A DNA stretch of 64,000 nt, from NCBI RefSeq assembly GCF_900114455.1, contig NZ_FOTC01000001.1:645058-709057 (forward strand), in the 5' to 3' direction. A program made the position numbers and the translations under genes. This stretch comes from Halogranum rubrum. Its GTDB lineage: Archaea > Halobacteriota > Halobacteria > Halobacteriales > Haloferacaceae. The notes below the pieces were generated by a model. It searched no databases. It saw only the letters and a program-made list of their open reading frames with translations, and was not told where the DNA came from. Shown here piece by piece: positions 5,041-21,044 of this stretch (positions are counted from its first letter, which is position 1; each line of letters begins with the position of its first letter).

Positions 5041-5115
5041 AATCGACCAGTTTTGAGTGAACCAGTGGCTAACTCTCTGCCGGACAGTGGTAGCGTGAGA
5101 ACGACTCGTCGTGAC

Positions 5116-6057
5116 CTACAGGCCGGCCACCGTCGCCAGTGCGAAGAGGGCGACGACGACGAATGCTTTCGCCTCACCGGCGATTGCGAGTCGTGTGTGA
5201 CGCGTGGTCCGTCCGACAAACGCCGTCACGACGAGGGTGTAGCCGAGACCACCGAGGAGCGCGAGGGACACGGGAGTCGAGAGTACTCCGCGGACGAATG
5301 CGCCGGTGACGAGGGCGACGAGTGCGAGGTTGATACCGTAGAGAATCTGTCGCGTCCGGGCGACGCCGAAGACGACGGGGAGCGTCGAGACACCGATTGC
5401 CTCGTCGGCGAACCGGTCGTGGACGTTCGGAATCTCCGTGTTGACGAACGAGTCGAGAAAGAAGTACACGAAGACGACGGCAGCAGCGGGGGTGAACAGA
5501 CTATTCACGAACGCGAGTGGCAGGAAGACGAGTGAGATTGCCCACGCGAGTGAGACGATGGAGGTGTTGAGCACGAGTACTTCTTTCAACCGCTGGAAGT
5601 AGGTGCCGACCTCCGGAAGCCACTCCGAGGCGTAGAGCACCCAGAACGCGCCCGGAAGGAGCGTGATAGCGAGCGGCATCGGCCCACCGAACAGCGCGAT
5701 AGCGAGAGCTAGTCCGTACGCTGCTGCCGACAGAACCGAGAGGAGCGTCTCGTGTCGGCGGACGAACGCTGACTGTGTCGGGTTCGATACCTCGTCGGTG
5801 TCGACGTCGGCGAGTCGGTCGCCCATGTACACTGCAAACGTGACCAATCCGACTACGAGCGGTGCGGGGTTCGCGGGGAGCGAGAGCGCAATTAAGACGG
5901 TAACAGACTCTGCAAGGGCGATGGCGACGAGATACGCCGAACTGAACAGCAGTGCGTCCTTCGTTCGTCTGGCCGCCGAAAAGAGATGTTCGATGAGCGT
6001 ACGATACGCTGGAGTGACGTTGTCCGCATGGGTCGACTGTGTGGATTGATCAGGCAT
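5116..6057 (-). CDS. UbiA-family prenyltransferase
   Basis: 313 aa, about eight or nine transmembrane helices. The first Asp-rich motif is DRLADVDTDE (D80, D84, D86, D88), and the second is NVHDRFADEAIGVSTLP near residues 213-229, the two Mg-prenyl-diphosphate sites of UbiA enzymes. In archaea members make archaeal ether lipids (DGGGP synthase), heme O or menaquinone. The atypical first motif (GDRLADVD instead of NDxxD) argues for a divergent paralogue of unknown acceptor. An AT-rich upstream segment (about 6105-6135) probably contains the promoter. It stands alone on this strand between the kinase and an ArsA ATPase. Confidence 0.85.
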   Translation of the reverse strand: MPDQSTQSTHADNVTPAYRTLIEHLFSAARRTKDALLFSSAYLVAIALAESVTVLIALSLPANPAPLVVGLVTFAVYMGDRLADVDTDEVSNPTQSAFVRRHETLLSVLSAAAYGLALAIALFGGPMPLAITLLPGAFWVLYASEWLPEVGTYFQRLKEVLVLNTSIVSLAWAISLVFLPLAFVNSLFTPAAAVVFVYFFLDSFVNTEIPNVHDRFADEAIGVSTLPVVFGVARTRQILYGINLALVALVTGAFVRGVLSTPVSLALLGGLGYTLVVTAFVGRTTRHTRLAIAGEAKAFVVVALFALATVAGL

Positions 6058-6208
6058 GGGATACCGACGGCAGAAGTGCGTGAAACGACCAGGTTAATCT
6101 GCCATCTAATTTAACATTATTACATAACAGCATTAAGTAAGTGGTCCCTGACGTCTCGTTTCCCACTCCTCGCTTCGGGTTTCGTCTCAGCCGACACCGC
6201 AGTTCGTA

Positions 6209-7198
6209 CTACTCGGTCACCAGCGACGGGCCGAGTCTCGTGAGCGCGTCGAGGCCGTGAGCTTCGCCTTCCAACTGTGGGACGTGGCTGACGGGGAGGT
6301 CGAATCGGTCGTCGACCTCCTTTCGACGCCGCGCGTGCCGCGCCGCATCGCGCTGGCAGCGGTCACACGAACAGTCGTCGCGGTTCTCGAAGAGGCGGTT
6401 CAACACCATCGCATCGACTGGCACGGAGGCGTTGCGGAGGCGGGCGACGAGTCGCTCGGCTTCCGAAATCGCCATCGATTCAGGGGTGAGGACGACGCGG
6501 AAGGCAGTTCGACTGGGGTCGCGAAGCAGGGCACCGACGGTGTCGACGCGGTCACGAAGCGACGCGACTTCGTCCGACTCGTCTGTCGCTCCCCAGTACG
6601 CGGCGGGACCGAACACCATGCTCCGGGCCGCTCGGGCGGTTCGGTTGACGCGCCGTTGGACTTCGCCGGCGACGCCGAGCGTCTCGCCGAGCACTGCCGG
6701 GAGGTCGAGGAGTCGAAGCGTGTGACCGGTCGGTGCGGTGTCGAAGACGACGTGGTCGTAGTCGGTGTTCGCGTAGCGGGCGATGTACTCCAGTGCGGCC
6801 ACCTCGTCGCCACCGGGGACCAACCCCGCCTCGAACAGTCGTTCCAAGTCATCGTCGCCCAATCGGAGCCCAGCGTCGCGGAACTCGTCGGCGAGTGCTT
6901 CGACCACGCCTCGGTACGCCTCTTGCCCGCGTTCGGGGTCGACTTCGACGGCGTCTACCGAGTCGGTGACCGACTGTGGCTCGCCCGTGAGCTCTCGCTC
7001 GAAGGCGTCGCCGAGCGAGTGTGCCGGGTCGGTCGAGACGACCAGCGTCTTCGCCGCCGGGTCTCGTGTCCCGAGTGCGAGCGCGTGGGCCGCCGCACAG
7101 GTCGTCTTGCCGACACCGCCCTTTCCACCGTAGAGTACCACGTCGGCCGCTCGCTGTCGACCTCGCGCAGATTGTTCTGATTGCTCGGGTCGCGTCAT
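6209..7198 (-). CDS. ArsA/Get3-family ATPase
   Basis: 329 aa. The deviant P-loop YGGKGGVGKTT lies near residues 23-33, followed by STDPAHSLGDAF (switch I), VFDTAPTGHTLRLLDLP (switch II) and a C-terminal CSCDRC cysteine cluster like the CxxC of Get3. This is the single-domain archaeal form. Family members are soluble ATPases that chaperone tail-anchored membrane proteins (Get3) or energise arsenite pumps (ArsA). No arsenic genes are adjacent, so a Get3-like role is more likely. I chose ATG 7198; a GTG lies one codon upstream. Confidence 0.9.
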   Translation of the reverse strand: MTRPEQSEQSARGRQRAADVVLYGGKGGVGKTTCAAAHALALGTRDPAAKTLVVSTDPAHSLGDAFERELTGEPQSVTDSVDAVEVDPERGQEAYRGVVEALADEFRDAGLRLGDDDLERLFEAGLVPGGDEVAALEYIARYANTDYDHVVFDTAPTGHTLRLLDLPAVLGETLGVAGEVQRRVNRTARAARSMVFGPAAYWGATDESDEVASLRDRVDTVGALLRDPSRTAFRVVLTPESMAISEAERLVARLRNASVPVDAMVLNRLFENRDDCSCDRCQRDAARHARRRKEVDDRFDLPVSHVPQLEGEAHGLDALTRLGPSLVTE

Positions 7199-16828: not shown

Positions 16829-17704
16829 ATGTGGTTGCAGACACTCGCGGACGTGTGGACGACTCGCCTCTCCGGCTTCCTCGAAGGGGCCGGCCTGTTC
16901 GTCGCGACGGTCACACTCATCTATCTGCCCGGTCGCTTCGTCGTCCTCCCACTGGCGAGACGACTCCTCGACGCCCTGGGGACGAACGACACGTTCGAAC
17001 TCCCGTTTCTGAAGGTGTTTCACGCGGCTATCGCCGTCTTCGCGCTGTTCAACGCCGCCGTCGCCTCCGACTTCACGAGTTTCCTGAAAGCGACTGAGGC
17101 GCTCGTCGCTGGGGCGACCATCGCTATCGGGTTCGCCTCGAAAGACGTCCTGGGGAACTTCGTGAGCGGCATCTTCATCGTCGTCGACCCGAAGTTCAAC
17201 ATCGGCGACTGGATACAGTGGAAGGGGAACGAGGGCATCATCGAGGACATCAGCTTCCGCGTCACTCGCGTCCACACCTTCAACAACGAACTCATCTCGG
17301 TTCCGAACTCGGAGTTGACCGCCAACGCCGTGACGAATCCGGTGGCGAAAGAGCATCTCCGCCTGACGTATTCGTTCGGTGTCGGCTACGACTGTGATAT
17401 CGCGGAGGCGAAGTCGATTCTCGTCGACGAGGCGACGAACCATCCGGACATCCTCGACCGCCCGCGTGCGAGCGTCTTCGTGCAGGAACTCGGCCCGTCG
17501 GCCGTCTCACTGGAGGCGCGGTTCTGGGTTCACCATCCCGCACGGACAGACGTCACGCGGATTCGCTCGGAGTACATCCAGTCGGTCAAAGAGCGCTTCG
17601 ACGCCGCCGGCATCGAGATGCCGTACCCCTACCAACAGCTCACCGGGAGCCTCGAAGTCACCCACCCGGACGACGGTCACGCGACTCACGCTCACAGCGA
17701 GTGA
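16829..17704 (+). CDS. MscS-family mechanosensitive channel
   Basis: 291 aa. Three N-terminal hydrophobic helices end in the pore-lining TM3 (LVAGATIAIGFASKDVLGN), followed by the beta domain FNIGDWIQWKGNEGIIEDIS and RVHTFNNELISVPNS, and then the alpha/beta C-terminal cage domain. This is the compact MscS topology. The channel opens on membrane tension during osmotic downshift, which is relevant for a halophile. It appears to be a single-gene unit. Confidence 0.93.
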   Translation: MWLQTLADVWTTRLSGFLEGAGLFVATVTLIYLPGRFVVLPLARRLLDALGTNDTFELPFLKVFHAAIAVFALFNAAVASDFTSFLKATEALVAGATIAIGFASKDVLGNFVSGIFIVVDPKFNIGDWIQWKGNEGIIEDISFRVTRVHTFNNELISVPNSELTANAVTNPVAKEHLRLTYSFGVGYDCDIAEAKSILVDEATNHPDILDRPRASVFVQELGPSAVSLEARFWVHHPARTDVTRIRSEYIQSVKERFDAAGIEMPYPYQQLTGSLEVTHPDDGHATHAHSE

Positions 17705-17816: not shown

Positions 17817-17990
17817 ATGGATCTCACGCTCGTACTTCTCGCGACTGTGACTGGAATGCTGACTGGCGCTGTGTTCAACGCCGCTGGCGTCCCGATACCC
17901 GCGCCGCCGAACTTCGCCGGTGTGATGGGTGTCGTCGGCGTCTTCCTCGGCTACCGACTCGTGGAGTGGGCGACGGTCGCACTCCTCTGA
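17817..17990 (+). CDS. XapX domain membrane protein
   Basis: 57 aa, starting at ATG 17817 inside a longer frame. Two hydrophobic helices flank PIPAPPNFAGVMGVVG, the hallmark of XapX domain proteins (small inner-membrane proteins of unknown function, often near transporters). The good match over its whole length is why I trust this start. Confidence 0.85.
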   Translation: MDLTLVLLATVTGMLTGAVFNAAGVPIPAPPNFAGVMGVVGVFLGYRLVEWATVALL

Positions 17991-18017: not shown

Positions 18018-18143
18018 TCAGACTGACAGTCGCGGCGTGGCCGGTTCCGGGAGGTGGTCGGCTTCGAGTACGGTCAGTTCGGCGTTCACGCGGCCCAGTT
18101 CTGTTCGAATCTGACTGAAGTTCGGCTGGTCGACTCGTCCCAT
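18018..18143 (-). CDS. Tiny ORF A (41 aa), homologous to ORF B at 19153
   Basis: A 42-codon frame from ATG 18143 to TGA 18020-18018. The protein has a hydrophilic N-terminus and then IRTELGRVNAELTVLEADH and LPEPA. The segment of 28 residues is about 55-60% identical by eye to a second tiny ORF at 19153-19281 on the opposite strand, with RVNAE and LPEPA conserved. Two independent matching frames in intergenic DNA argue for real translation. The predicted structure is one amphipathic helix. The function is unknown. Confidence 0.6.
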   Translation of the reverse strand: MGRVDQPNFSQIRTELGRVNAELTVLEADHLPEPATPRLSV

Positions 18144-18338
18144 ACACCTCGTCTCACTGCCAGCACAGATGAACGAAACTATGAGGGAACGAGAGTGCTC
18201 AATAGAGCTCCAAACCGCTCTGAACCGCTCTGCTCACTGACCGCTCTTGGTAGCCGGTAGCATGCACCTATAGACTGTTTCACAGAGATTAATTCGTCGT
18301 TGCGAACGGCTATCTTCCGAGAGAGTGCTCGTCGCGAG

Positions 18339-18710
18339 TCACTGTGGCGTCGCACCACGTAACTGCCTCTCACCCTCGTCGAAGTGAGTCGTGAGCAACT
18401 CGACGAGTCGGTCGTCGAGGACGGCCTTCGGTGCCGGATCGAGTCCGGGTAACTCCGCTAGTCGACGGCGCGCCGCGTAGAGCAACTCCCGGTTGAGGTT
18501 CGACGCATCGTCGACGACGCGGAGTTCAAGGTCGGCGTCGTCGTCGGGTGGGAAGCCCGAACGCGAGAGGAGGTAGTGTGCAGGGTCTGCTGGACCGGTT
18601 GCTCCTCCATCTTCGATTTCCTCTACTCTCACGCCGTTCACGGCGTTCACGTCGCTGTCTGCGGTACCTCTCCACCTCGGTTCGTGCATCTCGTATTGCT
18701 CTCCGCGCAT
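18339..18710 (-). CDS. Acidic hypothetical protein
   Basis: 123 aa, soluble and acidic, with RRRLAELPGLDPAPKAVLDDRL in its C-terminal half. ATG 18710 is used; ATG 18689 would remove seven residues. Base composition at third positions fits a coding frame. No family is recognised. It is divergent from the next small membrane-protein gene (18818). Confidence 0.6.
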   Translation of the reverse strand: MRGEQYEMHEPRWRGTADSDVNAVNGVRVEEIEDGGATGPADPAHYLLSRSGFPPDDDADLELRVVDDASNLNRELLYAARRRLAELPGLDPAPKAVLDDRLVELLTTHFDEGERQLRGATPQ

Positions 18711-18817
18711 TGTACCGAGTTCACGATTGGCTTACACATCGGGCTGTGGGTTGTATATACCACACACGGTCGGGATGCGTCGAAACACACAGGCACCGTG
18801 GGGACGAAGAGTCGTGT

Positions 18818-18991
18818 ATGGTCAGCAGACTCACGCGAATCGCCCGTGGTATCGACGACGTGACCAGAGCGGTCTGGGATGATTCGGGGACGGTAGTGAA
18901 GGTCCTCATCCTCATCGGTCTCGTGGTGACAGCGCTGGCGATCCCCGTCATTCCGATTGCCGTCGTCGCACGCTACCTCGCGAAGCGGTAA
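18818..18991 (+). CDS. Small single-helix membrane protein
   Basis: 57 aa starting at ATG 18818. An amphipathic charged N-terminus (LTRIARGIDDVTRAVWDD) is followed by one hydrophobic helix of about 24 residues and ends ARYLAKR. Such short tail-anchored proteins are common in haloarchaea, and most have no known function. Confidence 0.55.
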   Translation: MVSRLTRIARGIDDVTRAVWDDSGTVVKVLILIGLVVTALAIPVIPIAVVARYLAKR

Positions 18992-19152
18992 CTAACCACT
19001 TCTGTGCTGTGTGAACGTTCCTCACGGGTATTGGCCGCTCTCCGTACAGATCGTGGGAGTTCTCAGTGAATCGTTTAGGACTGTTCACGTCTGTTTAGCG
19101 GGAAATACCCAGTGCATACCTTAGTGGCATCCAGTCGTACAGTGCGGTTGTT

Positions 19153-19281
19153 ATGCGTCGTACTACCTCGCGGACGGGACCCGCCGACCGCGACTACAGC
19201 AATATCCAGCGAGGACTCAGCCGAGTCAACGCCGAGATGACGATTCTCGTCGCTGGATGCCTTCCAGAACCGGCCGAGTGA
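19153..19281 (+). CDS. Tiny ORF B (42 aa), homologous to ORF A at 18018
   Basis: ATG 19153 to TGA 19281, 42 residues. It contains YSNIQRGLSRVNAEMTIL and ends LPEPAE, matching ORF A over 28 residues. A TTAGTGG-containing AT-rich stretch about 30 bases upstream could be a weak promoter. The frame has strong G/C preference at third positions. The two copies are 1 kb apart on opposite strands, so they are not a simple tandem duplication. Confidence 0.58.
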   Translation: MRRTTSRTGPADRDYSNIQRGLSRVNAEMTILVAGCLPEPAE

Positions 19282-19805
19282 CGGATAGACGCGGCGTCTA
19301 ACGTCGTACCTCTCTCACTGTTCCACTGGATAGCAGTAGCTTCATACAATTCCAGGGACAACAGAGAACTATCCATGCATTTCGCATGGATACCACCGGA
19401 ATGCCACACTCAAACCCACCGGGTACATCTCGGAGGGTGCGTTCCGGTGGGTTCTACACGCAGAGTAACTACGACAGCGTACCCCAGTCGTTCAGCGCTC
19501 CGCTACTGTGCCGCCCGTCGTCACTCGCACACTGATTCTCCGTAGCCATCGACCGCCGCGCAGAGAGTTCTCACGCGACGAGTCACCCGCCGTCGCCACT
19601 CTGTGACTACCACGGCTCCGAATCGACGTGGCAAAACGCTAGGCGGTGGCAGGCTAACTCTTTGTGAGTGACGTTATCTCTACTCTCACGTCGTCGGCTG
19701 CTCCTGGGTCACTGTCGGTCGACGACCACGAGTTCCGTCTTTGGCCAACACCTCGGGACGTAGCCGGCCCATTTTTGCCCTCGTGGTCGAAAGCGCCACT
19801 ACTCA
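19282..19805. other. Long gene-free region upstream of ftsZ, rich in inverted repeats
   Basis: No credible coding frame. It holds a perfect hairpin (TATCCATGC at 19370-19378 with GCATGGATA at 19384-19392), then a 10-base inverted repeat (AACCCACCGG 19413-19422, CCGGTGGGTT 19444-19453), and an imperfect CTGTT/AACAG plus CTGGA/TCCAG stem at about 19318-19365. It also has one copy of GGCTAACTCTT at 19652-19662. The ftsZ promoter should be in its last 100 bases but no clear TATA box is visible. Confidence 0.5.
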
Positions 19806-21044
19806 ATGGACTCACGAGACAACGACGACGGAAGTGAGTGGCCCGACCACGACGAAGAAGCGCTGGAAGCCGAAGAGAGCGAGTGGCCCGACCACGACGA
19901 GGATTCGCTCGAAGACAACGACGACGAGAGTGGCTGGCCCAGCCACGACGGAGAGACACTCGAGGACGACGCGTCGTTCGATGCCTCCGAGTTGGTGTCG
20001 AACGCCGAACGAAAGCGGTCTCCCTCGTCGTCAGAGCCGGGGATGACCGACGAGGAGCTCCTCGAAGTACTGGAGACGCTGGAGACGAACATCACCGTCG
20101 TCGGCTGTGGTGGTGCTGGCTGTAACACCATCAACCGCCTCGCCGAAGTCGGCGTGGAAGGGACGACGCTCGTCGCCGCGAACACCGACGTCCACGACCT
20201 GGTCAACGCGAACGCCGACGAGAAGATTCTCCTCGGTGCAGAGGGGCGGAAAGACCGTGGCCGCGGTGCCGGGTCGATTCCGAAGAACGGCGCGGATGCG
20301 GCCCACGAGAGTCGCCACGACATCCGCGACGCCGTCGAGGACGCCGACATGGTGTTCGTCACGGCCGGGATGGGTGGCGGTACCGGCACCGGGTCGGCTC
20401 CCGTCGTTGCGGCGACTGCCCGCGAGACCGGCGCACTGACCATCAGCGTCGTGACGATGCCGTTCGCCTCCGAGGGACGCGTCCGGATGGAGAACGCGAC
20501 GGGTGGTCTCTCGCGACTCCGCGAGGAGAGTGACACGGTCATCGTCATCCAGAACGACCGACTGCTGGACGCCGTCGGCAACCTCCCGGTCGAACAGGCG
20601 TTCAAAGTCGCCGACGAAGTGCTGATGCGGTCGGTCAAGGGTCTCGCCGAACTCATCACCACCGAGAGCTTCGTCAACCTCGACTTCGCCGACGTCCAGA
20701 CCATCATGGGTCGCGGCGGGATGGCGCTCGTCGGCATCGGCGAAGGCCAGGGCGACTACCGCGCGGACAACGCCATCACCTCCGCACTGCAGTCGCCGAT
20801 GCTCGACGCAGACATCAGCACGGCGACCGGTGTTCTCGTGAACGTCACCGGCGGTCCGGACATGAGCATCGCGGAGGCCGAAGGTGTCGTCGAAGACATC
20901 TACGAGCGCGTCGACCCCGGCGCGCGTATCATCTGGGGTGCCTCCGTCGACGACGACATCGACGACGAGATGCGCGTCATGCTCATCGCGACGGGTGTCA
21001 CGCCGCGCAACCTCACCCCTGAGCGACACGACGCCGAGCAGTAA
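19806..21044 (+). CDS. ftsZ: FtsZ paralogue with N-terminal tandem-repeat extension
   Basis: 412 aa tubulin-like GTPase for division or shape. From about residue 94 it has [15 protein letters not shown], the nucleotide motif GGGTGTGS and the T7 loop NLDFADV, all intact. It resembles the haloarchaeal FtsZ1 class more than FtsZ2 ([21 protein letters not shown]). Residues 1-79 are acidic and contain three copies of an 11-residue unit, [11 protein letters not shown] (11-21), [11 protein letters not shown] (26-36) and [11 protein letters not shown] (43-53). The C-terminus stops soon after the tubulin domain and lacks the usual partner-binding tail. An internal ATG at 20043 would give the bare domain, but the extension has coding-like composition. 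Confidence 0.93.

Follow-up and report, generated by a model that had tools for sequence, protein, structure and literature searches.

Two tiny paralogous genes of Halogranum belong to an unnamed family of haloarchaeal microproteins

The window analysed here, a 64-kb stretch of the Halogranum rubrum genome, contains two tiny genes, A and B, which lie on opposite strands and on both sides of two other small genes (Table 1). The initial annotation of the raw sequence had already described this arrangement, with ATG starts and TGA stops and with both frames free of overlapping genes. Re-reading of the sequence found the frames, of 41 and 42 residues, where they had been placed; only mechanically called GTG or TTG ORFs cross either of them, and the two genes in between are indeed present, as ORFs of 123 and 57 residues which are both also found in H. 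amylolyticum (strain CGMCC 1.10121), the comparison genome from the same genus. The gene order A(-), 123-aa(-), 57-aa(+), B(+) is common to both species.

Table 1. Genes and sequence features around A and B, in positions of the window.
Feature	Position	Strand	Remarks
MscS-type channel gene	16829-17704		neighbour of the A/B locus
XapX gene	17817-17990		neighbour of the A/B locus
Microprotein A	18018..18143	minus	41 aa, stop included in coordinates (MGRVDQPNFSQIRTELGRVNAELTVLEADHLPEPATPRLSV); basis: homologues, syntenic orthologue, purifying selection, conservation island
TATA-like TCATAGT block upstream of A	18178..18184	minus	candidate promoter
123-aa ORF upstream of A	18339..18710	minus	unnamed; homologues in Halogranum, Halocatena and Haladaptatus
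57-aa ORF upstream of B	18818..18991	plus	one hydrophobic stretch (membrane-type); kept in H. amylolyticum
Conserved block upstream of B	19080..19126	plus	CTGTTCACGTC-GTTTAGCGG and TATA-like GTGCATACCTTAGTG; candidate promoter/operator
Microprotein B	19153..19281	plus	42 aa, stop within coordinates (MRRTTSRTGPADRDYSNIQRGLSRVNAEMTILVAGCLPEPAE); basis: homologues, purifying selection, conservation island
RNA-like structured element downstream of B	19368..19454	plus	two adjacent hairpins; conserved, predicted fold
ftsZ	19806-21044		neighbour of the A/B locus

The block upstream of A comprises seven identical bases within an intergenic stretch that is otherwise 44% identical to its counterpart in H. 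amylolyticum. As a conserved TATA-like block is found upstream of each gene, A and B are probably transcribed independently. Homologues of the 123-aa ORF in Halocatena and Haladaptatus, some of them on plasmids, are located near genes for manganese catalase, DUF892 and universal stress proteins, a setting that may point to some stress role of the 123-aa gene; no co-occurrence of the microprotein with these homologues was seen outside Halogranum. In H. amylolyticum a subtilase gene, which is not present in the window, lies between A and XapX (locus L096, 5925-7175, minus strand). The N-terminal extension of FtsZ (19818-19970, plus strand) contains three near-repeats of the WPDHDEExLE type in the window and one in H. 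amylolyticum.

A and B are identical at 16 of 28 positions and positive at 21 of 28 (BLASTP, 35.4 bits). In an all-against-all comparison of the 109 ATG ORFs of 30-70 aa in the window, A and B formed the top pair, with the runner-up at 20.4 bits, and this lead of 15 bits excludes chance as the source of their similarity, in agreement with what had been claimed from the sequence. Apart from A and B, a search of the window with a profile built from the family identified no further members.

A and B were searched against 99 relatives, and with the profile searches that followed the family came to 15 credible members in 9 genomes from three genera of the Haloferacaceae. In detail, the window genome encodes A, B and a further copy, D, and H. 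amylolyticum these three plus C; two members come from genome G020, one from G043, which belongs to the same genus as G020, and the other five from five species of the genus g11, one per species. Credible matches were confined to those 9 genomes among the 119 Haloferacaceae genomes searched, and searches of 101 and 96 genomes from two further families gave no match, an empty result which alone proves little. Weak profile matches within long proteins (loci L027-L041 and L010) and a partial match in genome G010 were discarded after inspection as chance similarities.

The members are about 36-49 residues long. In the family alignment the initial methionine and both prolines of an LPEPA motif are invariant, one leucine and one asparagine are near-invariant, and most members follow the pattern [DN][YF]S-x-I-x3-L-x2-[VL]N-[AS]...LPEPA, from which D departs in both Halogranum species with LPSPV. 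A tree of the 41 alignment columns was poorly resolved; the members linked in an operon with another small gene (see below) cluster in it, weakly. Searches of Pfam, NCBIfam and PHROGs with A and B gave no family even at an E value of 1, the other members gave nothing or weak matches below the cut-off in the family libraries, and in the PDB no significant match was obtained, with two matches at E 0.15 only. No member contains a zinc-binding motif, a known domain or a hydrophobic run, the last being judged by direct reading. A and B are two stand-alone paralogues of a previously unnamed haloarchaeal microprotein family. The suggestion of an unnamed family with dispersed copies has thereby been substantiated, as further homologues exist in haloarchaeal genomes, they show conservation at the codon level and no library names them.

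In most orthologue pairs pN/pS is 0.17-0.35, indicating purifying selection, and the differences fall mainly on third codon positions; this answers the codon-based check which the initial annotation had proposed. In randomisations, amino-acid changes were fewer than under random placement in most pairs (p 0.0002-0.006). The A-A orthologue pair is weaker (pN/pS 0.56, p 0.006), and one distant g11 pair reached p 0.07. Between the two Halogranum species the coding region of A shows 71% DNA identity and its adjoining spacers 44% and 41%, while for B the corresponding values are 73% for the coding region and 54% and 50% for the spacers. In addition, members at unrelated loci retain their own start and stop. 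A and B are judged to be coding from these conservation islands, the codon-level selection and the retained ends taken together, and we consider it highly probable that the microprotein genes are real and under selection.

At eight loci a gene for a DUF7556 protein (PF24433) lies 2-6 bp upstream of the microprotein on the same strand, namely at copy D of the window genome and of H. amylolyticum, in the five g11 species and at one of the two G020 members (G020-B). Seven of these eight pairs adjoin rtcB and are convergent with it. In G020-B the rtcB neighbour is missing, so that the pair appears to outlive its surroundings, and this pairing in two genomic contexts suggests that DUF7556 is a partner of the microprotein. 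A and B do not belong to the operon-linked members, as other genes adjoin them. DUF7556 itself is encoded in 240 of 242 haloarchaeal genomes but is hardly ever accompanied by the microprotein, which is confined to this one paralogous DUF7556 copy; no microprotein was found behind second DUF7556 copies sampled in other haloarchaeal families. In a third Halogranum genome (G002) the rtcB-adjacent DUF7556 gene is kept and the microprotein has been lost or was never present (locus L102, near 5100-5340). The microprotein is therefore dispensable to DUF7556, and the link is real but optional. The arrangement around 18.0 and 19.2 kb had also been taken as a hint of a paired role of A and B; it is kept in two species, yet the recurrent partner elsewhere is DUF7556 and not a second copy. 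No paper on DUF7556 was found in the literature. The link between the microprotein and this nearly universal yet functionally obscure protein offers a testable entry point to both.

AlphaFold2, run on A with the family alignment, predicted a single helix at residues 7-22 with the remainder as coil, at moderate confidence (pLDDT 75, pTM 0.35), and the moment of the helix is only modestly above that of shuffled sequences. For DUF7556 a helix and three strands are predicted. Our preferred reading, to which we assign a probability of roughly 0.45, is that the microprotein is a soluble adaptor peptide whose helix and LPEPA tail bind a partner protein. Such a cytosolic peptide would consist of a variable polar N-terminus, one amphipathic helix ([YF]S-x-I-x3-L-x2-[VL]N-[AS]) and an extended conserved LPEPA tail, with helix and tail docking jointly on the partner. 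DUF7556 would be the probable ancestral partner; that it is the protein bound in particular is suggested by gene order and is less probable than the adaptor function as such. A and B, located outside the DUF7556 operon and each with its own candidate promoter, might supply this binding module under separate regulation, perhaps with the products of the adjoining 123-aa and 57-aa genes as targets. One can go further and imagine a lineage-specific regulatory module. In it the LPEPA adaptor would have been born behind DUF7556, in second place in a duplicated operon, and then been relocated and duplicated; B would by now be tied to a structured small RNA, and the whole would form a small stress-related locus centred on the two divergent small genes. 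We regard this extended scenario as doubtful.

The structured element, 87 bp behind B, has a folding z of about -8 (19370-19460) and is 89% identical in H. amylolyticum, which is above the identity of B itself; one compensatory pair change is observed. It is single-copy in the window genome and in H. amylolyticum, was found in none of 58 other genomes searched and has no match in Rfam. It may constitute the 3' end of B or a separate small RNA. Such a strong and conserved hairpin element directly invites the alternative that the microproteins are leader peptides, of the attenuation type or as upstream ORFs, in which it is translation itself that determines how the downstream RNA folds. We consider this unlikely, because at dispersed loci it is the amino-acid sequence that is under selection and no comparable structure was found near other family members. 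A constant target gene is also lacking, since ftsZ of H. amylolyticum is about 2.5 kb away from the element with opposite-strand ORFs in between, and A precedes the subtilase gene in that species and XapX in the window.

Slightly less probable still is that the peptide is the small toxin or the antitoxin of a pair whose counterpart would be DUF7556 or the 123-aa and 57-aa products. Tiny paralogues at dispersed loci, the clean absence from one species and the two-gene operon layout would all fit such a system. However, the hydrophobic segment typical of type I toxins is absent, no toxin or antitoxin domain was found in the libraries, and DUF7556 is near-universal and usually occurs without the microprotein, while A and B occur without DUF7556.

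The location of A and B had further been read as a hint of mobility, and the corresponding explanation would be that the genes are cargo or passengers of mobile elements (IS200/IS605 or integrated conjugative ones), spread by transposition without a host role. Copy C of H. amylolyticum (locus L097, 5114-5224) does end some 0.1 kb before a tnpB-family gene of the IS200/IS605 type (5324-6256), in AT-richer surroundings of 47-55% GC where another tnpB and a weakly matching TraG/VirB4-like ATPase are found a few kb away at most, suggesting that this one copy may have travelled. For A and B, however, the hint did not hold: they are syntenic in the two Halogranum species, as is D, neither a transposase gene nor element ends flank them, and no repeat joining their surroundings was found. 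Plasmid, phage and viral collections (including IMG/VR) returned nothing or weak chance matches. A and B in the window have thus not moved recently, and with purifying selection on the members as well, mobile cargo is improbable as a general explanation, more so than a toxin or antitoxin.

Finally, the notion of a chance similarity or of a non-coding DNA repeat read as protein, which short GC-rich frames with many overlapping mechanical ORFs could prompt, is refuted to the point of being negligible by the all-against-all control, the conservation islands, selection with its excess of third-position changes, and the 15 homologues with conserved ends, and a DNA repeat as the source of the likeness is ruled out, as none joins A and B.

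Few parts of archaeal genomes are as sparsely annotated as the proteins of fewer than 50 residues. Here a reading of raw sequence without any tools picked out a pair, and from it the analysis arrived at a family that is under selection, shows synteny and has a recurrent partner in an operon. Tiny dispersed paralogous genes are also known from bacterial type I toxins and other membrane microproteins; the microprotein members differ from type I toxins in that direct reading reveals no hydrophobic segment and no antisense RNA was found. DUF7556, the operon neighbour of eight members, is likewise a small haloarchaeal protein to which no function has been assigned, but it has another sequence and another predicted fold, comprising three strands in addition to a helix instead of the single helix seen here, and it is near-universal in the class whereas the microprotein family is found in three genera. 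Comparable in kind are the haloarchaeal C(P)XCG zinc-finger micro-proteins such as HVO_0758 of Haloferax volcanii (PMC10716476). These are likewise soluble haloarchaeal proteins of less than 70 residues, but they are defined by two C(P)XCG motifs. The present family has no such motif; A contains no cysteine and B only one. What is new is therefore the family, whereas its kind, the haloarchaeal micro-proteins, was already known.
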